Positions 3,568 to 22,234 of a stretch of DNA of 33,618 nucleotides are shown one piece after another (within the stretch, counting starts at the first letter, position 1; every line of letters starts with the position of its first letter). The notes beneath the pieces were generated by a model. It worked only from the letters and a program-made list of their open reading frames with translations. It did no database searches and had not been told where the DNA came from. The position numbers and the translations under genes are program-made. Source of the DNA: a virus; IMG/VR virus record IMGVR_UViG_3300031576_000217, positions 1 to 33,618 of that record; one strand, written 5' to 3'.

Positions 3568-5085
3568 TCATTGTTCTTGCCTCCCTGATGGGCGGGGAGC
3601 TTCTAAGCCGCGTTCCATTCGCTCGTTGGATTCAGCGGTCCGCTTCATATACTCCAGAATTTCCGAACGCAGTTCGGGACTAATCGCGCTGTCTCCGGTG
3701 CGGTTCAATGCCGCACGGAATGCACCCTCTTCGCCGCCCAGCCCCTCAATAATTGGATAGATCGCGGATGATGCCGCGTAACTGAACCCGCTTTGACGTG
3801 ATTTGGTTTCAGCAACTAATGCTTCAAAAATGTTCCTCTTGGTGCTATCGAGCGACATAGACAGACTTCCTTCGCGGCGCTGGCGTAATGTCGCTGCCCT
3901 GAGTTGCGGGTCGGATTCGATGTATCGTCGATCCCCGATGACATCCGAAGTGTTGCCCGCTTGAATCTGAGGCAGCATTTGGCTGAACATCGCCTGCCCC
4001 TCAGCGCTTGCGAGAATGTTCAAACCCGCAGCCGCGCGCATTTCCCCCGTGATGCCAATGGCCGATTCACCGCTGCGCATCCTTTCGACCAATGCCGTAA
4101 CCGTTTCCAGGAGCGTGCCCTTGCCTAATTTGTCTTTGTTAATCTGATTCAGCAGCGATCGCATGCGCGTGGCTGCCTCTTCCGTACCGGGAGACTGCTT
4201 TTCAATCGCCACGAACGCCGCTAGCGCCTCTTCGTCAGAGAAACCGAGCGCATTCGATTCAGTTCCAAAAAGTGTTGTTCCAACGGCTGCTAGTGCGAAG
4301 TCGGTTTGCATCGCACCCGCTGCGATTAATACTTTGTTAGCAATTTGTTCAATGCTCCCGGCTTCACCTTTACCGAAAACGTCCTGTGTTTTCTTTAAGC
4401 CCTCGGCAACCGTTTTGAGATTATCCGGCCTGACCTGCTTGCTCTGCCCGAGCTTGGTGATATACGCCACTTCGGAGTCGGAGTAGCCAGCGTTGCGGAG
4501 TCCGAAGACAAAGTCGGCCGCTTGTCCGCCTTGGTCGGGTCCGAACACGCCCTGCGTCTGTAGGTTGCGTGCTTGCCCGACTAACTTTTGAAAGTCTGGC
4601 GGTGAAGTGGAAACCTGCTGCAACTCGCCGAATGCGCCGACTGTGTTAAAGACACGATCCGCCGCCACCTGAGAATCGGCGCTCATTTTCTGTAGCGCTT
4701 GCGAAACAATACCAACCGCCGCACCAACGCCGATAAACCCAGTGGCATAACTCTTTAGGTCGCCGATTGCTTTCGCACCGAATGTTTTGCCGCCACTGCT
4801 ACCAACATCGTCGAGCTTCTGCCGTAACCGCGCCGCCGTCCGCTCGGCGTCCGCCATTTCCATCTTGCCGGCCTTCACGGCCTTGGCCATCGTTTCCAGC
4901 TTCTGATTGTAGCGCTCTTGCGGCGTGAGGTTTTGATCGGTGATGCGCTTGGCGGCTTTTTCCAGCGCGTTCATTTCGCGCACTGAGCCCTTCACCGTGT
5001 CGCCGAGTTTTTTATAAACGGCGTTTAGATCGGCACCGGCTTTGAGGCTGGTAGATAGATCGGTTTCAAATCGCAGTCGGGCCAA
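3568..5085 (-). CDS. Tail tape measure-like protein (505 aa)
   Basis: It starts with TTG at 5085, behind GGGTGG and one base past the end of the frameshifted chaperone reading frame. The protein is mostly helical: residues about 1-95 are charged coiled coil (LKAGADLNAVYKKLGDTVKG and following). A glycine-rich hydrophobic patch follows (SYATGFIGVGAAVGIVSQAL). The rest is long alanine-rich helical segments. It sits immediately after the chaperone pair with a -1 slippery site, the standard tape-measure position. In known siphophages tail length scales with tape-measure length. At 505 residues this would be a short tail unless another protein contributes. The C-terminus (GRQEQ) overlaps the start of a competing minus ORF. 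Confidence 0.8.
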   Translation of the reverse strand: MARLRFETDLSTSLKAGADLNAVYKKLGDTVKGSVREMNALEKAAKRITDQNLTPQERYNQKLETMAKAVKAGKMEMADAERTAARLRQKLDDVGSSGGKTFGAKAIGDLKSYATGFIGVGAAVGIVSQALQKMSADSQVAADRVFNTVGAFGELQQVSTSPPDFQKLVGQARNLQTQGVFGPDQGGQAADFVFGLRNAGYSDSEVAYITKLGQSKQVRPDNLKTVAEGLKKTQDVFGKGEAGSIEQIANKVLIAAGAMQTDFALAAVGTTLFGTESNALGFSDEEALAAFVAIEKQSPGTEEAATRMRSLLNQINKDKLGKGTLLETVTALVERMRSGESAIGITGEMRAAAGLNILASAEGQAMFSQMLPQIQAGNTSDVIGDRRYIESDPQLRAATLRQRREGSLSMSLDSTKRNIFEALVAETKSRQSGFSYAASSAIYPIIEGLGGEEGAFRAALNRTGDSAISPELRSEILEYMKRTAESNERMERGLEAPRPSGRQEQ

Positions 5086-5086
5086 G

Positions 5087-5919
5087 TTACCACCCTTGAT
5101 TCAGCGCCGCCAAATCGGCGAACGTCGGTTTGTATCCTGCCGCCAACCCCCGCGACCACGCGCGGTAAACTAACCAGCGGCGGTCACAGGGGATGGTGTC
5201 TTTTTTTTTGAAACCTCTTGCCATTTGAGATACGTTGGCCAATCAACCGCGATGGCCACGATGTTGTGCGTCATCTGTTCGGTCGTAAGAAAGTGACCGT
5301 GGGCAATCTCGTTCGCCCCAATAACGTAGTTCGTCTGCAAAAGCGCCTGCGCGGCCTTGTTAATATCCGCTTTGTTCACCTCTGGCCCGCCTTCGTCGTC
5401 GGCCAGCATTTGCTCGGCGAAGGGGGCGGTTAAATTCCACAGGTGCGCATACAGCGGGAGCACTTGACCGGGGACCAATTCGCCCTTGTCATCAACGTCC
5501 AGGTAGCTCGGCAGATTCGTGCGCAGCTCTACGGCGGATTCGTCGAAATAGCGGACCACCGGGCATAACCACCGAGCACCGTCGGCCAGTGAAACCAGAT
5601 AGCCGCCCAATTGATTCTTGCGGGCGAGGTCTAGCGGTGTCGGCGGAGCGTCTTTCCAGTAGCCTACGAATACGTCCGGCTCGCCCGGCCGCTTCATCTT
5701 GCGCCACGCCTGATTCTCCATGTCCATCTTCACGCGCCCGTCGTCATGCCGCGACGGATCGGCGAACACGACGCCGGTGGAGCCCGTGGGCGTGTGGGCG
5801 TGGCACACGCACGTTACTGGCGGAGTCTCGAAAGCATAGGACAGCCCCCACGCCTTCACGTCGTCCTGCGAGACGTTGCGAGTTTGACTGGGGCGGAAAT
5901 ATAAGAAGCCATTGGGCAT
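5087..5919 (-). CDS. Tail assembly chaperone, -1 frameshifted long form (gpGT-like)
   Basis: This is the predicted fusion product of the 249-aa chaperone and a 37-codon extension read after a -1 slip at A AAA AAG (5206-5200). The first 240 residues are those of the upstream frame. The extension, which I translated by hand, begins DTIPCDRRWLVYRAWSRGLA and ends ADLAALNQGW before TAA at 5089-5087. It has no start codon of its own near its beginning. It ends one base before the TTG of the tape measure, so the frame exactly fills an otherwise empty 85-base gap. In lambda and many siphophages the frameshifted form bridges tail-tube subunits and the tape measure. The length of the predicted fusion is 277 aa. 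Confidence 0.75.
5170..5919 (-). CDS. Tail assembly chaperone, short form (gpG-like)
   Basis: The 249-aa ORF starts MPNGFLYFRPSQTRNVSQDD, 3 bases after the stop of the preceding tail gene. It is soluble and mixed alpha/beta, with a more helical second half (NKADINKAAQALLQTNYVIG). The last residues (EVSKKKTPSPVTAAG) are encoded over a run of nine A residues, where the frameshift is predicted. Sequence alone would not identify it. The call rests on position between the tube-protein cluster and the tape measure, together with the slippery site. It is longer than lambda gpG (about 140 aa), so it could carry an extra domain. Confidence 0.7.
   Translation of the reverse strand: MPNGFLYFRPSQTRNVSQDDVKAWGLSYAFETPPVTCVCHAHTPTGSTGVVFADPSRHDDGRVKMDMENQAWRKMKRPGEPDVFVGYWKDAPPTPLDLARKNQLGGYLVSLADGARWLCPVVRYFDESAVELRTNLPSYLDVDDKGELVPGQVLPLYAHLWNLTAPFAEQMLADDEGGPEVNKADINKAAQALLQTNYVIGANEIAHGHFLTTEQMTHNIVAIAVDWPTYLKWQEVSKKKTPSPVTAAG
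5200..5206 (-). other. Programmed -1 frameshift slippery site A AAA AAG
   Basis: In the chaperone frame the codons read TCA AAA AAA AAG ACA. The heptamer A AAA AAG has the X XXY YYZ form and is the one used in E. coli dnaX. Nine consecutive A residues (5209-5201) are unusual in this GC-rich DNA. A Shine-Dalgarno-like AGAGG (about 5218-5213) lies about 6 bases upstream, as in dnaX. Downstream, complementary segments CCGCG/CGCGG (around 5165-5150) and CCGCC/GGCGG could form a stem. Slippage leads to the 37-codon extension. Confidence 0.8.
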
Positions 5920-5921
5920 GA

Positions 5922-6419
5922 TTAACTTAGCGTTTCGATGAACTCAGCGAAGGCCAGCGGGCCTGCCGCGCCGGTCCCGAGATTGACGATCATTTGAATG
6001 GAAAACACGTCGCCGGCCACGAATGTCGTACTGCTCAGCGTGCCCTCGACCACAACTCTGTCGCTCGTGGCATGAGTAATCGTCAAGTCCGCAGACATAA
6101 TCGTCGTGCCGTTCTTTTTCAGCACGAAGTCAATGTCGGTGTTCGTGCCGGTGTCGTTCAGTAGCCCGGCGAATTTGTTGATCGTGCCGGCCGACCCGGC
6201 CACGAATACAACCTCTTCGCGGGCCACCGGGGGCGTAGTGGCAATCGGCAGGTCGAAGTTCGTCCAGCCCTTGGAGAACAATTCCGACTTCGACGCCGGG
6301 AACGCATCGGCAACGGCGCTTGACCACATCGCCGGCTTCAACGCGCCGTCTGGAAACGTGATTGTCGCCCCAGCGTTGGCCGGCACTTTGACTGAGCAAT
6401 TGGCAATGATCGTAGACAT
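5922..6419 (-). CDS. Tail structural protein, beta-rich (165 aa)
   Basis: The ORF starts MSTIIANCSVKVPANAGATI behind a GAGG motif. It is rich in Val, Thr, Ala and Gly in alternating beta-strand patterns (VVFVAGSAGTINKFAGLLND). A segment ATSDRVVVEGTLSSTTFVAG ends in a hydrophobic strand, SIQMIVNLG. It contains no catalytic motif or membrane helix. The pattern fits a virion surface or Ig/jelly-roll-like decoration domain. Location between the tube gene and the chaperone suggests a tail-tube-associated protein. The family is not recognised. Confidence 0.65.
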   Translation of the reverse strand: MSTIIANCSVKVPANAGATITFPDGALKPAMWSSAVADAFPASKSELFSKGWTNFDLPIATTPPVAREEVVFVAGSAGTINKFAGLLNDTGTNTDIDFVLKKNGTTIMSADLTITHATSDRVVVEGTLSSTTFVAGDVFSIQMIVNLGTGAAGPLAFAEFIETLS

Positions 6420-6422
6420 GGC

Positions 6423-6665
6423 TTATTCGTCCTCTTCCGTAAGCCCGTCAATCGTGGCTTTGTTTTCTTGACCAACCTTCCTTAGGATCGTGATGACCTT
6501 ATCCCGCACGGCAGGGACGCAGCAGCCGTGAACATCACAGAGCGAGGCGAGCTGCTTGCGGTATTCTTCCGGCACACGATCCACTACCCGCGCTGAGCGG
6601 CCGGCGGCAATCATCACCGCGACCGCGCGCCAAAATTCGTCAAGTATTGGTTTCTGTTTACTCAT
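6423..6665 (-). CDS. Small tail-region protein (80 aa)
   Basis: The true start is taken as the ATG at 6665 (MSKQKPILDEFWRAVAVMIA), which overlaps the TGA stop of the tail tube gene as ATGA, with GGAG upstream. The same frame extends further upstream, but that part only shadows the tube gene. The product is mostly helical. It has three cysteines in CDVHGCC and an acidic tail (GLTEEDE). The family is not recognised. The tight coupling to the tube gene suggests it is made in proportion to tube protein and helps assembly. Confidence 0.65.
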   Translation of the reverse strand: MSKQKPILDEFWRAVAVMIAAGRSARVVDRVPEEYRKQLASLCDVHGCCVPAVRDKVITILRKVGQENKATIDGLTEEDE

Positions 6666-7621
6666 CACGACTCCGGCGACGTGTCGTAAGCGGCAGCAGT
6701 ATTGAACAGGATCGGGGCATTGGTGCCGTCGTACAGGCACTCGATACGAACATCCACCGTGGCGTCCGCCTGACCCGATGCACTGAATGGACTCGTGACG
6801 GTGATTAAGCCGAAAGCGGTGAACGCGATGTGCTGAGTGGTGGCGGAGGCAACGTAGGAACTGCCGGTGAGGCGCTTGACTAGCTGAATCTTGGTGTCGG
6901 CATGAGTGGCTGTATCCCATAGTCCGATGTTTGCGCCGCCGATCTTGGATGGGTTGATGCCCCGAAAGGTGATCACCGGGACTACCTTCGTGACCGCGAT
7001 GCGGTCCGGGTAGATCGTAGGTGCCAGCGGGCGCGGCTTGGCGACTTGTACGCCAAAATCAATCGTCACGCTTTCCGGCTTGAATTGGATGCCGCTTATG
7101 GCGCATAGACCTATCTCGAATTGCTCTTTGATAAGCGACGCTGGCAGGGTTGCCGCGTGGCTGATGACCAGCGGGGCATTGGTGCCATCGAAAATGGCAT
7201 CAATCATAAAGCTGAGCGTGGCATCGCTGCCTTTGTCGGCTTGTAGCGAGCCGAGATACATCAGCCCGTTGGCGAAAACGTAACTGCTATGACTATTGGA
7301 CTCCACGTCCGTCAAGCAGTCGCCGCGGTTCTTGCCGAACACGGTGACACCGGGGTCGCCCACGGCATCCACGAAACATTGGCCGCTGACGCCGATCGTG
7401 GAAAGCACTTCGGCGATCGCCTTGGACGTTACGCTGGCGACCGGGGCAAATTGCGTGATTGACCGGCCTTCGTCGTAGATCGATCCCGAGTCGTCGCCGA
7501 TCGTCTCAACATTGCTGGCAATTTCGATGCTCACGATGGAGCCGATTTGTGCATCCAGCGTGGCGGCAGCCAATGGTTCCTCGGCGTCAACGATCACTCC
7601 GCCGCTTGAATAACTTGGCAT
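6665..7621 (-). CDS. Probable major tail tube protein with internal duplication (318 aa)
   Basis: The start MPSYSSGGVIVDAEE has an ideal AGGAG site 6 bases upstream. The protein is beta-rich with few charges. Two parts look like copies of one domain: a SSYV...DATLSF...IFDGTNAPLVIS segment in the first half and a SSYV...DATVDV...LYDGTNAPILFN segment near the C-terminus. The shared YDGTNAP/FDGTNAP block is clear by eye. Its position after the head-tail completion proteins and before the chaperone is the lambda gpV position. Some tube proteins carry an added Ig-like domain. Here the two halves seem related to each other instead. A second tail structural role is the alternative. Confidence 0.65.
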   Translation of the reverse strand: MPSYSSGGVIVDAEEPLAAATLDAQIGSIVSIEIASNVETIGDDSGSIYDEGRSITQFAPVASVTSKAIAEVLSTIGVSGQCFVDAVGDPGVTVFGKNRGDCLTDVESNSHSSYVFANGLMYLGSLQADKGSDATLSFMIDAIFDGTNAPLVISHAATLPASLIKEQFEIGLCAISGIQFKPESVTIDFGVQVAKPRPLAPTIYPDRIAVTKVVPVITFRGINPSKIGGANIGLWDTATHADTKIQLVKRLTGSSYVASATTQHIAFTAFGLITVTSPFSASGQADATVDVRIECLYDGTNAPILFNTAAAYDTSPES

Positions 7622-9422: not shown

Positions 9423-10703
9423 CTATGCCTCCAATAAAACTGCGGCCGGTGGTCGCACCACGGCCAAGGATTCTTGTCTGGAAAGTAGCTCTGCACCCGC
9501 CGAGATAAGTTCATCGACCGCCAGCTTCACGCCTTCGTCGCCTAAGAGTCGATAATCGTGGAACACTAGGAGCCCGTCTGGCTCCAACGCGGCCAGTGCC
9601 TTGTCAATGTCCATTCGCACGGAGTCTAGTTCATGGTCCCCGTCGATAAAAACCACATCGAAACGGGCGGCTGCTATTTCATCTCGCATCGACAGGGACG
9701 TAACTTTGTCAGCCACGCCGTAGCGGATGATGTTGTTTGTAAACTCCGAGAGCGTGTCGCGTGGATTGGGCGTGGCGCGGCCGTCGTGTGGGTCGATACT
9801 CGTGACGTGCTTCGCGGTTTGCGCCAAGCAGATCGTACTGCGTCCGCAATAGCTGCCGATTTCCAATACCCGCTTGCCGCTGGCCAGTTGTGACAGCACC
9901 CGGCCTTCGGCTTTCGTCAGCCAGCCATCGACATCGTGCGGGAAATCGTTCGATACGCTACCGCGCACCACCGTGCCGGGCACATATTCGGAGTCATATT
10001 CGTTACCCCAGGGCTGCGAGTTGGTAAATTCAATATCGCCTCGGTGGCTGAGTTGAATCTTGCGAGTCACGCCAACTCGCTTTCCCAAACAATGAAAGCC
10101 GCGTGAGAAATACCAGTCTTCTGGTTCGCATTGGGCGACGTAGCGATTCAGCTTTTCGTCGTAAACGATTCGGTCGTTGATCGTGAAACTCAACCGGCGA
10201 CACCATGACGGGTCGAAGCGACAGACCCATAGCCCAGTATTCAGCAAGAGCGGATATCCGACGTCTTCGCTCGTGAAGGTGTCCGGCAGCCGATAGATTT
10301 CCTGCATCGTCAGCCGACAATGCACACTCCACGTATCGGCGTCAGGCCGCGCAAGTGCGATACTGGTAACGCCTCGAGTGTCCTTGATGGGCACCACGAC
10401 TCCGAGCATGTCCAGGTCGTGGGCTTCCAGTTCGGCAATTAACGTATCGAGCCAGAAGTCTTCTGGCTCGATGTCCGCGTGTTGCATGGCGAAATACTTG
10501 ATCGGCATTCCAGCCGCGTGCAAATTCAAAGCGTGCGCCCATAGCCCATTGAAGTTCGCCGCTAACAGTGAGCCTTGCTTGTACTCCCAGAACAATGCGT
10601 CGGGCTTCCGGCTGGCACGCCAGAAGCCACGCGATGCGCCGGCGGTCAGATAGCCGTATCCGGGCATTCCTAAAAAAATTCGTTCTGAGTTGCTATCCGT
10701 CAT
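9423..10703 (-). CDS. Glycosyltransferase-methyltransferase fusion inside the head module
   Basis: Residues about 1-215 look like a GT-A glycosyltransferase: FAMQHADIEPEDFW carries an HAD in the usual DxD position (residues 75-77), followed by LDMLGVVVPIKDTRG. A later CEPEDWYFSRGF resembles the acceptor-side acidic motif. Residues about 255-420 are a class I SAM-dependent methyltransferase of the Methyltransf_24 type. Motif I is VLEIGSYCGRST (269-280), and FDVVFIDGDHELDSV and LLVFHDYRLL follow. The gene lies between the capsid/helical genes and the decoration gene. A role in modifying sugars on capsid proteins, or on host surface glycans, is inference. No signal peptide is seen, so the enzyme should act in the cytoplasm. 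Confidence 0.8.
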   Translation of the reverse strand: MTDSNSERIFLGMPGYGYLTAGASRGFWRASRKPDALFWEYKQGSLLAANFNGLWAHALNLHAAGMPIKYFAMQHADIEPEDFWLDTLIAELEAHDLDMLGVVVPIKDTRGVTSIALARPDADTWSVHCRLTMQEIYRLPDTFTSEDVGYPLLLNTGLWVCRFDPSWCRRLSFTINDRIVYDEKLNRYVAQCEPEDWYFSRGFHCLGKRVGVTRKIQLSHRGDIEFTNSQPWGNEYDSEYVPGTVVRGSVSNDFPHDVDGWLTKAEGRVLSQLASGKRVLEIGSYCGRSTICLAQTAKHVTSIDPHDGRATPNPRDTLSEFTNNIIRYGVADKVTSLSMRDEIAAARFDVVFIDGDHELDSVRMDIDKALAALEPDGLLVFHDYRLLGDEGVKLAVDELISAGAELLSRQESLAVVRPPAAVLLEA

Positions 10704-11134: not shown

Positions 11135-12856
11135 TCAACCCTCGCCCTTGTAGAGGCCACGCCAATCGAGCCCCTTTGCACCGATGTCCATCTTCACGTC
11201 CCATCCGAGACCCCAGCGACCTTGGGTAAGCACAAACGGCCGGACTTGAGGAACGCGCCCGGTGCCGCGCAAGTAGCCGACTTCGATCGTGTGCGACCCG
11301 GCGCGTGCCGCCAAATACCAATCGTTATTGGCACCGGCATGAGTCGTTGTCGGGACGGTCGGATCGACCACACCGTTTTCCAGGCGCGGCTCGACGACGA
11401 CACGCAACTTTTGATAGTTGGGGTTATTGCTCGGCGTCTTCGCGACATCCGTCGAAATCAGCATCCGAGAATTGACCAGCGAATCGGCATCGTCTTCCAA
11501 CGTCGGCGGCACGATCAGGAACTCGGACATCAGGTTCAAGTTGCGGACGCCCTCGCGCTGCAACCGCATGGCGGAGCGACCGGCCCCGAGCTTGCCTGCT
11601 GTCGCCAATCCGGCCGCTGTGGCGAGGTTGCCGTGGGTGGCTGTGTGGAACAACGCAACGCTGTCGCGCATGTTCGGATTCCCAATCAGGATCGAGTACA
11701 CCAAGTCGGGGCGAAGCTGCCGCGCAGCAACACCAAGGTCGGCCGGTGCGAATTCGTTGGCGGCACCGAACGTGTCGTCAACGATGTCCTGATCGTCCAT
11801 GACGAATTGCTTGGCGTACCGCGCGATCCGATACGATTCGATCACGTCCTCATGGGTTGCGTGGTCCGCTTCTTTTCCACGCGGCAGCTTGACCAACGCT
11901 CCACCCTGAACAAGTCGAATGCGATCGTTGGTCTTGAAATCCGCCACGTCGGCTTCACGAATCCAGCCGCCAGTTGTCGAGTCAGGAGCAGTTTCAAACG
12001 CAGTCAATAGCTGCGAGTTGATATTGGTCGTGAAGATATTTGACAGCGTTTGCGTGCTGAAACCAGACCGCAAGTACGCCTCCAGCAAACCGTTGCGACC
12101 ATTCGGAAGCGTCACGCCGTCAACTCGCGCGGCCATCCGTAGGAAATCTTCCATCGAGCACGCCCGGTACTGCCACGCCTGCTCGGCGATACCGGCCAGA
12201 TCGTTACCGCTTCGACGTACTGGCATACAGTTGTCGTTGCCGACCCAGCCTTGCGCCGGGTTGATGCCGCTGCGGTGCAACATGGCGGCTTCGAGAACTT
12301 GCGAAGTCATGCCACTCACGCTGCTGCGGCTGTGCGCTGCCGGCACATTCGGCCGATCCGGCGTCACTCGCGCGCGGGTGCGGGCCTGATAGTCCTCGAA
12401 AATCCGCTGCCGCGCGGCATCGGCCGTGATTTGCAAATCGGCAACCAGCGTATCGACCAGCTCTTGCGAAGTGCTGGCGATGGCGGCGTACTCGCGAATG
12501 GCCTGGACGCGGGCGCGTTCGCGATGCGCGCCTTCCGTGCGGGCGGCTTCCAGGTCGGCGCCGTTGGCCGCCGCGCCGTCGGTTCCGGCTTGCCGCTGCG
12601 CTGCCGGCGTTTCTTCCGGCAGAACTTCGCTCGGCTTTTCCGGGTTGTAGCCCAGAGCGCGGATCATCAAGTCGCAGTTGGTCCGCGCGGCGTGATCGTC
12701 TTCGTTATAGTTGAGGGCGTTGGCGATCGACGCCTGCAAGCCGCGGAGACTTTGATAGAACGCCCATGCTTGTTCATCGGTGGCGTTGTGGTCAAGTCGA
12801 TCGCCGTTCGGATTCGCACCGATGCTACGCAGGTAGGCAAGAAGTCGTAGGTTCAT
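11135..12856 (-). CDS. Major capsid protein with N-terminal scaffold-like region (573 aa)
   Basis: The start MNLRLLAYLRSIGANPNGDR has a strong GAGGAG site and overlaps the protease stop (ATGA). Residues about 1-185 are charged and helical with coiled-coil character (DLEAARTEGAHRERARVQAI) and a basic/proline linker. They resemble the delta/scaffold segment that a prohead protease removes. Residues about 190-573 match the style of Mu gpT-like/HK97-fold capsid subunits. Segments include LSNIFTTNINSQLLTAFETA, KQFVMDDQDIVDDTFGA (the E-loop/A-domain area) and, near the end, LTQGRWGLGWDVKMDIGAKG. No separate scaffold gene is present, which supports the fused arrangement. The cleavage site is unknown. 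Confidence 0.85.
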   Translation of the reverse strand: MNLRLLAYLRSIGANPNGDRLDHNATDEQAWAFYQSLRGLQASIANALNYNEDDHAARTNCDLMIRALGYNPEKPSEVLPEETPAAQRQAGTDGAAANGADLEAARTEGAHRERARVQAIREYAAIASTSQELVDTLVADLQITADAARQRIFEDYQARTRARVTPDRPNVPAAHSRSSVSGMTSQVLEAAMLHRSGINPAQGWVGNDNCMPVRRSGNDLAGIAEQAWQYRACSMEDFLRMAARVDGVTLPNGRNGLLEAYLRSGFSTQTLSNIFTTNINSQLLTAFETAPDSTTGGWIREADVADFKTNDRIRLVQGGALVKLPRGKEADHATHEDVIESYRIARYAKQFVMDDQDIVDDTFGAANEFAPADLGVAARQLRPDLVYSILIGNPNMRDSVALFHTATHGNLATAAGLATAGKLGAGRSAMRLQREGVRNLNLMSEFLIVPPTLEDDADSLVNSRMLISTDVAKTPSNNPNYQKLRVVVEPRLENGVVDPTVPTTTHAGANNDWYLAARAGSHTIEVGYLRGTGRVPQVRPFVLTQGRWGLGWDVKMDIGAKGLDWRGLYKGEG

Positions 12857-18381: not shown

Positions 18382-19524
18382 TCAATCGTCATCGCACAAC
18401 ACATCAAGCGCCAACTTCAAGACCTGACCAACGAACGGAACGACGTCGATCGTGATGGTCGTCGTGTCGAGGTCTTCGGCCTGAGTCGCATCGATAACGA
18501 TGGACACGTACTTACCGTGCATCCCGATGTTGACAGTGAATTCACCGCTGCTGCTCAGGCCATTCAACACATTCTGAATGTTGCTGGTCAACTGTTTGGT
18601 GCAGTCGACCCACACTTGGCTGATCTCGCCTGGCACAATACGCAACGCGGGGAACGCTTTGACCACACCATCAGCCCGCGAGCCAAGTTTGGCCGTGCGA
18701 GCTGGGACTGGCTCCTGGTTGTGCACCTGTGCAACCGAGCCAGCTAAAGCCGTCGTTGAATCGACAAGCGTCACGCGGGATAGGTGCCCGCTGGCGTTGA
18801 TGCCCAGCGACCGGAAGTTGGGCGGAACGGCCATGTCTTTAATCGCATAAGTCGCCGCGTCGGTGATCGTCCAATTCGGCGCGCTGTCCACCGTCACAGC
18901 CAGGCGACTAGCGCTTACATAGGTCGAGGTGACAATGGTTCGTTGCGTCAGCCGGCCACCTTCGCGGAGCACGATCGTTGCGCCCACGAGGTCGACACCG
19001 CCGGCGACGAGGCCGCTGCCCGTCCAATTCAGGGTGTAATTGGTCTGAGTGGTGACGTCTTCGATCCCGCCCGCGTTTAGAAGCGTGCCGTAACCATCGC
19101 CGTTGAAGTAGGCTGCGGCGTTGGCTCCCGTGAACGCGATGCCGCCGAACTGCGTGGCGTCCACTTGCAAATAGTCAGTGCCAGCAGCCGCGAACAGGGA
19201 ATCGTAAATGTTCGCCGGCACTATGTAGAAATCCGCCCACACGGGTAAATTCGTCGTCGCGTCCACGAATTGCGCGCGGAGCGTCCCCACCGTGCCCGTG
19301 TCCGTCGCATTGAGCGTGACGCGGTAGTTTCCGTAGCTGTCGTAGACGCTCGCCGTAACCGTGGCCGCACGCACTGCCATCGCAGCGCCGTTCTTACTGA
19401 GCTTGATGCCTGTGGTGGCGTGGTCCAACGCGCCGGCCAGACCGATCTGCAGCGTCACCCCGTCCACTTCATCCACAAATGGACCGAACGAAATCACCGC
19501 ACTTGTGGATTGTTTTAGAAACAT
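18382..19524 (-). CDS. Virion fibre or receptor-binding-like protein (380 aa)
   Basis: It starts MFLKQSTSAVISFGPFVDEV, overlapping the phosphoesterase gene by 10 bases. The N-terminal 120 residues (GVTLQIGLAGALDHATTGIK, GTLRAQFVDATTNLPVWADF) follow the pattern of many phage tail-fibre and baseplate-attached proteins. Further on are a repetitive beta-rich middle with Thr/Val/Gly and a C-terminal block (FPALRIVPGEISQVWVDCTK). No membrane segment or catalytic motif is seen. A surface or host-recognition role is inferred from composition and from its companion LamG protein. It is encoded before the terminase genes, away from the tail genes. Confidence 0.6.
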   Translation of the reverse strand: MFLKQSTSAVISFGPFVDEVDGVTLQIGLAGALDHATTGIKLSKNGAAMAVRAATVTASVYDSYGNYRVTLNATDTGTVGTLRAQFVDATTNLPVWADFYIVPANIYDSLFAAAGTDYLQVDATQFGGIAFTGANAAAYFNGDGYGTLLNAGGIEDVTTQTNYTLNWTGSGLVAGGVDLVGATIVLREGGRLTQRTIVTSTYVSASRLAVTVDSAPNWTITDAATYAIKDMAVPPNFRSLGINASGHLSRVTLVDSTTALAGSVAQVHNQEPVPARTAKLGSRADGVVKAFPALRIVPGEISQVWVDCTKQLTSNIQNVLNGLSSSGEFTVNIGMHGKYVSIVIDATQAEDLDTTTITIDVVPFVGQVLKLALDVLCDDD

Positions 19525-21230
19525 GGCTGCCTCATCCTTCGCATGTGCATTTTGGGAGCCGCTGCGGGAAACGGCCCTGTTTCCAAGCTCGTCGAGAAAA
19601 CGTCAGAGACACCAACATTGGGAAATTCACGCACGGCGGCCAGCGTGCCGTAGCCGCTCATTGTCGCGCCGCCGCTGGTGAATTCGCAGACCATCAGAAA
19701 CCCATTGCCGTCGCCGGCGCTTCCCAGGCCGGTCCGCTCCTGGTTGTTGACGACGAACGCCGACACGTCGTTGCCGTACGCGCCAGTCTGCGCCAAGTGC
19801 CCGGTCCGCGCTTCCGACGAGCTGTTGATGAAAGCGTGGCCGCACCAAATAGCGACCAGGTTCGGAATGTACTGGTAATAATTCGCCCACATATCGCTCG
19901 GCACGTGGTACGCCTCAGCTTCGCTGGCGTAGTAGTTGTTCGGATTGGTGCTGATTAGCGCCGCGCCGAGCGACGTGTCTTGCAGCACGTAATCGTGCCT
20001 CACCAAAAAAACGCGCTTGGTCGGGTACTGCCGGGCCTTGGCCTGGGCCCACTGGGCCTGGGCGATCGTGGGGCCGAACGGCTGCGTGATAAACAGGTCG
20101 GTTTGCGTGAAGCCGAGGTCCAAAAAGAACGAGTACGCGTACTGGTTGTAACCGCCGCCCGGCATCTGCTCGTTCAATTCGTTCTTGCCTGTAATGAGCA
20201 ACATTGGCAGGTTGCCGCTATCGTCCATTTCGGTGACGGTCCGCGTGGGCGCGTCCGCCCCGCTCTGGTCGCCGTCCAAATCGTGATTGCCCGGCACGAG
20301 CGTGACAAACAGGTTATTGATGACGATATCCAGGCCGGTCCGATGCTTGACGAACGTGCTCGTGCCGCCGCCATCGGCATAGCCGCGTTCGGTGTGATCG
20401 CCTAAATGAATTGCCGCCTTCAGATTCAGCACGCTGCGGTAGTCCTCGATCCACTGATAGAGTGCGTTGGTGGATGCCTGCGTGTAGGTGAGGTTTTGCG
20501 TGTCGCCGATGAGCACCACCGAGGGCGACTGCGCCGGGAACGGATAGACGCCGCCCGTCGTGTGCAGGAACAGCAACTTGCGCTCATCCGCCGTCAGAGA
20601 ACGCGACCACAGCATGGCCGGTCCCATGCGTCCGTCGTAACGATTCGCGACAGCGCCGTTGTTGAGGTGGCAGCCCAGCGTGACGTTGGCCATCGAATTG
20701 TGGAGGCCCGACGAATAGGCCGTGGAATTCTCGGCCCCGCCGTTGACCTGGATAGAGATATTCGCGCCGTCATACCGGGCGATGACGAGACACCAGCGAT
20801 TGGTTATCACCACGCCGAAGTTGTCGGCGACGACCGACGTTGGCGCAATCCCGTCGCTGCTCACCGCGAAATAGAGTTTGTTCGTCGAACCCGTGATGCC
20901 GATGGTCCAAGATCGCTGGTTGGTAGAGCCGCCGAAGTCGTACTGCCCGATGATTCCCTCGTCCACGCTTAACTGCTCGAACTTGATCCACACGGCGACC
21001 GTCATGTTCGAGCCGCTCAAATTGAATGAGCTGTTGTCGGCGATGAAAAGATGCCCCTGGTCCGCGCCCGCGTTGCGCTCGAAGTCGCGCGCCGTGGAAG
21101 ACACCAGGCCGGTGCCAGATTTTACAGAGCCGCTCACCGACAACGTATTGCTGCCGTGGCTATCGACAGCGCTGGCGTCAGCGGCTTCCGTGAGTGGCCA
21201 GTACGAAATAAGGTTATCGGTGAAGGCCAC
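19515..21230 (-). CDS. LamG-like plus metallophosphoesterase protein (571 aa)
   Basis: The start is GTG 21230, overlapping the upstream TAG (TAGTG) with a perfect GGAGG site. The much longer ATG-started frame only shadows the upstream gene. Residues about 1-210 are a LamG/concanavalin-type lectin domain: LISYWPLTEAADASAVDSHG, NMTVAVWIKFEQLSVDEGII, and the closing GRMGPAMLWSRSLTADERKL. The C-terminal part is a calcineurin-type phosphoesterase with metal motifs: VVLIGDTQ, AIHLGDHTERG, LVPGNHDLDGD, VRHDY and AIWCGHAF. No signal peptide is seen, so it is probably a virion component. It could bind host glycans and hydrolyse a phosphodiester in surface polymers, but the substrate is unknown. Confidence 0.8.
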   Translation of the reverse strand: MAFTDNLISYWPLTEAADASAVDSHGSNTLSVSGSVKSGTGLVSSTARDFERNAGADQGHLFIADNSSFNLSGSNMTVAVWIKFEQLSVDEGIIGQYDFGGSTNQRSWTIGITGSTNKLYFAVSSDGIAPTSVVADNFGVVITNRWCLVIARYDGANISIQVNGGAENSTAYSSGLHNSMANVTLGCHLNNGAVANRYDGRMGPAMLWSRSLTADERKLLFLHTTGGVYPFPAQSPSVVLIGDTQNLTYTQASTNALYQWIEDYRSVLNLKAAIHLGDHTERGYADGGGTSTFVKHRTGLDIVINNLFVTLVPGNHDLDGDQSGADAPTRTVTEMDDSGNLPMLLITGKNELNEQMPGGGYNQYAYSFFLDLGFTQTDLFITQPFGPTIAQAQWAQAKARQYPTKRVFLVRHDYVLQDTSLGAALISTNPNNYYASEAEAYHVPSDMWANYYQYIPNLVAIWCGHAFINSSSEARTGHLAQTGAYGNDVSAFVVNNQERTGLGSAGDGNGFLMVCEFTSGGATMSGYGTLAAVREFPNVGVSDVFSTSLETGPFPAAAPKMHMRRMRQPCF

Positions 21231-22234
21231 TAATTCGCCTCCCACACGTAGTTTGCCTTGAGGCTCCGCTCGATGTTGATGCGGACCCTGGCCTTGTTCA
21301 GCAGGATCGGGTCGCCTTTGATTTCTGCGGTGTCGCTGGCGATTCCGCGAATATGCACGACCGGTCGCGACCATTCGTAGGCGCACAGTTCTTCGAGCGG
21401 CGAGCCCACCGCATCGCCGCCGTCCATATCGACCCGCAGGCGAAAGAAGCCGTTGTTCTTGTTCGGATAAGTTTTCTTTTCGGCGTCGCCCAGCAACAAC
21501 CAGCGGTCCCAACTGCCGTTGGTACGGATGTCGGCCACGATCTTGCCGCCCTGCTTGGCCCAGATAACCGCCTTGCCGTTGCCTGCGGCGTAGAGATCGA
21601 AGCGATGATCCACCGACTGGTTATCATCGGTGATGATGGAGTAATCGACCGTATGCGTCACGAGTTCACGGGTGCGGGTATGGTCGCAGTGCCCGCCGCC
21701 GTCGCCGTTGTCGGCGTGCAGGATGCCGATCTCGCCGTTCGTCACAGTGACGCGATCGAAGCTGGTCATGCCGACCGGCCACTCCGCGCCCCTCTGCGTA
21801 ATCTCGACGATCGGGCCGGCGCTCATGGCCGTGTTGTGCTGGCCGGGCCACACGATGCAACCGGCTAGGCCGATGTCGGCGACGCGGAACCGCGAACGGC
21901 GAATCCTCAGCAACGGCTCGGCGTTGTCGCGCGGGCGGGCGTCGATGATCTGCGTGACCGCCACCCACGGAGCGCTCCACGCCGAATAAGGCTTGGCGAA
22001 GTCCGGCGCGCCGCTCCCCAGCAGGGCGCCGCCGACGCCGCTGCCTGCGTCCATCATCGTGTGGGCGTAAAACACGCCCACCGGCAGAAGCTTGGCCGCC
22101 CGAATATGTTCCACAATGGCAGGCCCGGAATCCTTCGTCCGGTCGTTGTGGTACAGCTCGGCCGCCTGTGCGGCATTGATTGCCGCCAGCCCCGTGAGGA
22201 GAATGCAGCTAGTGAGGCGTACGATGGAATTCAT
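21230..22234 (-). CDS. Secreted beta-rich protein with Sec signal peptide (334 aa)
   Basis: It begins MNSIVRLTSCILLTGLAAIN, then AAQA and a likely signal peptidase site before AELYHN. The mature part has repeating beta segments with Asp/Asn turns (ITDDNQSVDHRFDLYAAGNG, GGGHCDHTRTRELVTHTVDY), which suggest a right-handed beta-helix. The fold is not certain and no polysaccharide-lyase active site is identified. A phage protein exported by the host Sec system could act in the envelope, or could be displayed or secreted. Its end overlaps the LamG-phosphoesterase gene. The start has no clear ribosome binding site. Confidence 0.7.
   Translation of the reverse strand: MNSIVRLTSCILLTGLAAINAAQAAELYHNDRTKDSGPAIVEHIRAAKLLPVGVFYAHTMMDAGSGVGGALLGSGAPDFAKPYSAWSAPWVAVTQIIDARPRDNAEPLLRIRRSRFRVADIGLAGCIVWPGQHNTAMSAGPIVEITQRGAEWPVGMTSFDRVTVTNGEIGILHADNGDGGGHCDHTRTRELVTHTVDYSIITDDNQSVDHRFDLYAAGNGKAVIWAKQGGKIVADIRTNGSWDRWLLLGDAEKKTYPNKNNGFFRLRVDMDGGDAVGSPLEELCAYEWSRPVVHIRGIASDTAEIKGDPILLNKARVRINIERSLKANYVWEAN

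Follow-up and report, generated by a model that had tools for sequence, protein, structure and literature searches.

A length-conserved run of nine A and a −1 extension in a divergent family of phage tail assembly chaperones

Recoding in the G/GT region of the tail operon is a hallmark of long-tailed phages. It has been ascribed to the ribosome from work on a few model phages. In lambda, gpG and gpGT are encoded between the major tail protein and the tape measure protein, and a slip on a heteropolymeric heptamer near the 3′ end of G reaches a −1 extension that stops at the tape measure start (PMC5009743, PMC3711429). In Thermus thermophilus dnaX and in insertion sequences with A9 runs, transcriptional slippage takes place on nine A, a run whose length is conserved, and the slip yields the shorter product in T. 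thermophilus dnaX (PMC1088944). Baranov et al. (2005; PMC1088944) consider transcriptional slippage very likely where homologs keep a run at nine A, the length at which many genomes select against such runs. Families that use polymerase slippage, such as IS630, show both directions of frame change (PMC3711429).

The chaperone family described here has the position of lambda G/GT, and its −1 extension is likewise reached by a slip near the 3′ end and stops at the tape measure start. Its G part, however, is about 250 aa long with an N-terminal beta domain and belongs to no Pfam or PHROG family, and the slip occurs on a length-conserved A9 rather than on a heteropolymeric heptamer. With T. thermophilus dnaX and the A9 insertion sequences it shares a run of nine A of conserved length, but here the change is always to −1, some relatives carry heptamers that a polymerase could not use, and slipping does not make the shorter product as it does in T. 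thermophilus dnaX. Escherichia coli dnaX combines A_AAA_AAG with a Shine–Dalgarno (SD) element and a stem-loop; our locus likewise has A_AAA_AAG, followed immediately 3′ by a stable stem-loop, whereas the family as a whole has no conserved SD, its run is longer than a heptamer, and its longer product carries a new domain.

We analyzed a 33,618-base virus contig, IMG/VR record IMGVR_UViG_3300031576_000217 (hereafter the window). The G-like tail assembly chaperone is encoded in frame 0 at 5170..5919 on the minus strand (249 aa, ATG start), an assignment based on the open reading frame and 72 distinct homologs. Its 3′ end reads GTT TCA AAA AAA AAG ACA, so that the run of nine A (5201..5209, minus) contains A_AAA_AAA in frame (5209-5203) and, with G5200, a second in-frame heptamer, A_AAA_AAG (5206-5200). 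A −1 shift after K240 adds 37 codons and gives a predicted fusion of 277 aa; this T-like extension, DTIPCDRRWLVYRAWSRGLAAGYKPTFADLAALNQGW, occupies 5087..5199 (minus) including its TAA stop (5089-5087), which is followed by one base and then by the TTG start of the next gene at 5085. The original prediction had described this layout, with A AAA AAG inside nine A near the chaperone end, a 37-codon extension, a 277-aa product and a stop one base before the next start, and its coordinates were confirmed; the empty gap that it put at 85 bases measures 84 from the 0-frame stop to the tape measure start. It had also argued that nine A would hardly persist in such GC-rich DNA without a function. The run is the only A9 in the window (59% GC), but shuffled versions of the window contain 0.25 such runs on average and at least one in 18 of 100 shuffles, and the run alone is therefore weak evidence. 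It is the comparative evidence that lifts the slip site above chance.

The neighboring genes, one for a tail tube and one for a tape-measure-like protein, place the chaperone between them in a tail operon on the minus strand. The major tail tube protein (6665..7621, minus; 318 aa) was identified with AF2 and Foldseek, its model matching the tail tube proteins of phages SH-Ab15497, T5, and P74-26 (E 2e-7), and in 24 other loci the gene immediately before the chaperone is a tube homolog. Downstream is a putative tape measure protein (3568..5085, minus; 505 aa, TTG start), recognized by phmmer homologs that directly follow the chaperone in 14 other loci. The order of tube, chaperone, and tape measure is that of lambda, and the portal, capsid-protease, and terminase genes lie further upstream in the same operon. 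Between the tube gene and the chaperone the window also carries a 165-aa orphan ORF (5922-6419, minus); no homolog of it was found at that position in other loci, and it therefore looks like an insertion specific to the window's phage.

An AF2 model of the chaperone body, built from 20 sequences, reached a pLDDT of 92 and a pTM of 0.87. The only BFVD entry that the model matched significantly in a fold search is a tail assembly chaperone (E 4e-4, over part of the protein); the same search of the PDB gave no significant match, and none of 20 family members had a convincing Pfam or PHROG match. Taken with the comparisons below, the gene at 5919..5170 and its extension appear to constitute a lambda G/GT-like chaperone pair of a family without a Pfam or PHROG match.

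Relatives were reached indirectly. When only the chaperone and portal of the window served as queries, scans for close relatives were empty, and a tblastn search of phage and plasmid records returned no chaperone relative. The window's capsid protein led to locus L009, whose chaperone has 28% identity and whose −1 extension, following exactly nine A, is 47% identical over 36 residues; L013 has the same arrangement. The extension motif was then searched as DNA with a pattern that left out the A run, and a wider pattern gave 56 loci in a viral scan. In the first motif scans, each real match was immediately preceded by a run of seven to ten A; two candidates, L029 and L039, were rejected as chance matches. 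A profile of the extension was searched against 392 genomes, and a separate profile of the 0-frame body only was built to avoid bias from the extension and searched against genomes from the phylum, class, and order to which a Sedimentisphaerales (Planctomycetota) locus and further matches belong. Merging at 80% identity left 72 distinct homologs, nearly all 25–40% identical. The family apparently belongs to phages of Planctomycetota, and since relatives sit in Planctomycetota genomes, a Planctomycetota host is also probable for the window's phage.

The extension was found in 63 of the 72 homologs, always in the −1 frame (63/63) and always after an in-phase slippery heptamer (63/63), with the motif W-x5-W-x2-G-L-x2-G-Y-x-P-T-x2-D. 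An A run provides the heptamer in 59 of these 63, including L100, L102, and L103, whose extensions were missed by the extension profile and assigned by eye. In the other four it is replaced by G_GGA_AAC (L045 and L077), G_GGA_AAA (L071), or G_GGG_GGC (L088). None of the nine homologs without the extension has a run above A4, and in eight of them a tape-measure-like gene follows directly. Across the family, the slip site and the extension are thus seen to be gained and lost together. The extension-less homologs are L098, L099, L101, L104, L105, L107, L109, L049, and L050, seven of which form one tree group. A minor hint that constraint acts on the −1 frame comes from two close relatives, L024 and L027, which differ within the extension region by a CGC-to-CGT change that is silent in −1 and replaces Ala with Val in frame 0. 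Selection on the −1 extension and on the slip site, like the gene order, is evident from these comparisons. The original prediction of a programmed −1 frame change in a tail chaperone with a G/GT layout and a conserved extension is therefore supported by homologs and gene order. The conservation check that it proposed came out in its favor, with heptamer and extension together in 63/72 and the nine homologs without the extension also lacking the A run. A slippery heptamer is in phase in 63/63, but the A run is kept by its length of nine, in any phase, rather than as a heptamer.

The lengths of the 59 A runs carry this point. Nine A are found in 49, ten in 5, eight in 2, and seven in 3, and the A9 runs are spread over the three codon phases (14/14/21). 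The base that follows the heptamer core compensates for what precedes it: it is A in 26/27 cases in which the preceding codon ends in two A and in 15/18 in which that codon ends in one A, and in 0/14 in which that codon is AAA. Shuffling the 3′ sides among loci gave a mean of 20 A9 runs against the 49 observed (permutation p ≤ 1e-5, a value that, like the other p-values here, is optimistic because the homologs share ancestry and are not independent samples). Given the heptamer, codon-position base frequencies lead to a neutral expectation of 58% A7, 28% A8, and 11.5% A9, and this neutral model is rejected. The minimal A_AAA_AAG without an extra A is never used. Phase labels are scattered over the trees, which have long branches, suggesting that phase changed often while length stayed. 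With A9 in 49/59 and A10 in 5/59 regardless of phase, the family shows the pattern that was proposed to indicate transcriptional slippage (PMC1088944). In E. coli reporters of another gene family, output was 10% at A7 and 40% at A9, by an unspecified mechanism (PMC3711429), so run length raises output there too.

Other features of the loci bear on the ribosome. Just 3′ of the slip site, the window encodes a GC-rich RNA hairpin (5141..5198, minus; 23 pairs, with a continuous stem from C5192) that is a candidate −1 stimulator. Its stability corresponds to z −4.3 over 100 nt and z −5.0 over 60 nt, and it lies at the usual stimulator distance from the slip site, 5–8 nt (PMC4066793). The original prediction did not mention this hairpin. 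Downstream structure in 25 relatives showed a modest excess over 848 control stretches (p 0.002; 0.005 without the window). Hairpin-aided polymerase slippage would predict a hairpin upstream of the run; such structure was not enriched in the 25 relatives (p 0.17). The stimulator that the original prediction had pointed to, an SD-like AGAGG (5214..5218, minus) 4 nt before the run, did not hold up: it is not conserved, and SD-like motifs occur in 10/25 relatives against 34% of control stretches. Stimulators are common at sites of −1 ribosomal frameshifting but are not required.

That recoding takes place at this site is near certain. The idea that the open frame is accidental, or that a homopolymer was misread or misassembled, could draw on the 18 of 100 shuffles that contain an A9, but 63 divergent loci, taken from many metagenomes and genome assemblies, show the same arrangement, and we regard this explanation as refuted, its remaining probability being negligible. 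An extension made as a separate protein, through an internal start and translational coupling, is scarcely more credible. The window does have a −1-frame ATG 7 codons upstream of the slip, yet in 37/59 loci the extension frame holds no ATG before its last 25 codons, and in 24/59 it holds no ATG, GTG, or TTG there. Internal initiation, which would also leave the run unexplained, was rejected on the basis of these 24 loci without a start codon. The question is therefore which machinery slips. We favor a programmed A9 site at which at least some of the fusion comes from polymerase slippage, with ribosomal −1 slippage adding to it, and we put the probability of this reading at roughly 0.55. Against it stand a direction that is never +1, unlike that of known polymerase-slippage families, and the four relatives whose heptamers lack an A run. 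For polymerase slippage supplying part or all of the fusion, whatever the share of the ribosome, the odds are about even.

The strongest competing account, which we consider unlikely though far from negligible, is −1 frameshifting by the ribosome alone, with the P- and A-site tRNA-Lys slipping on A_AAA_AAA or A_AAA_AAG and the 3′ hairpin as stimulator; the length of nine would then be incidental or would somehow tune efficiency. This account readily accommodates the in-phase heptamer and the −1 direction, each in 63/63, and the runs shorter than nine, which hold their heptamer in phase in every case (A7 3/3, in the sole workable phase, and A8 2/2). The window's hairpin at the usual distance (PMC4066793) fits it as well, as does the replacement of the run by G_GGA_AAC, G_GGA_AAA, and G_GGG_GGC. 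Heptamers of the GGGAAA type are unusable by polymerase slippage, and L071 and L077, which carry them, are placed among A-run members on a tree in which many branches are weak. Left unexplained are exactly nine A in any phase (49/59 vs. 11.5% expected) and the non-use of the minimal A_AAA_AAG, and the SD-like stimulator is not enriched. Because a run length of nine is kept in all phases, the pattern described by Baranov et al. (PMC1088944), we do not accept a purely ribosomal reading. The original prediction of ribosomal slippage is favored by the direction, the heteropolymeric heptamers, and the 3′ hairpin, but it does not account for a run kept by length. The opposite extreme, transcriptional slippage alone at A9 as in T. 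thermophilus dnaX, with no part for the ribosome in the window's phage, is improbable. It would explain why length nine is conserved independently of phase, as the same study proposes (PMC1088944), but the strong hairpin in the window (z −5.0), the constant −1 direction, and the heteropolymeric heptamers of relatives speak against it.

Under the combined polymerase and ribosome reading, one gene would yield two chaperones, a short G-like one of 249 aa and, in lesser amount, a G-T-like fusion of 277 aa; we infer both products and their ratio, as well as what they do and at which step the slip happens. By analogy with lambda (PMC5009743), the predicted partners are the tape measure protein for the G part, which would bind it, and the tail tube protein for the T part, which would recruit it. 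RNA polymerase would slip on the run and add a tenth A in some mRNAs, a share that we assign to the polymerase because nine A are selected whatever the codon phase. Ribosomal −1 slippage on the in-phase A_AAA_AAA/A_AAA_AAG would add to the fusion, aided in the window's phage by the 3′ hairpin, and would replace polymerase slippage in relatives without an A run. Substituting AAGAAGAAG for the run would be expected to abolish slippage by both polymerase and ribosome.

It seems a balanced call whether in the chaperones of these apparent Planctomycetota phages the G/GT ratio is set by polymerase slippage at an exact A9, alone or together with the ribosome. The open-access papers that we searched contain no report of transcriptional slippage in a phage tail chaperone. 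The family is large and divergent, was missed by current annotation libraries, and has kept in evolution the number of nucleotides in the run rather than the phase in which they are read. Its runs of A7 to A10 in three phases, their replacement by GGGAAAC and GGGAAAA, and their loss offer a natural series for how polymerase and ribosomal slippage may stand in for each other.

Three other genes of the window, all on the minus strand, deserve mention. Inside the head-tail module, a 426-aa protein (9423-10703) has a C-terminal methyltransferase domain (PF13578, E 1e-16). The capsid gene (11135-12856) matches the "major head and protease protein" families phrog_4523 and phrog_133 over most of its length, which suggests a protease-capsid fusion. 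A 665-aa protein (19515-21512) weakly matches phrog_4390, a family of unknown function (E 4e-5).
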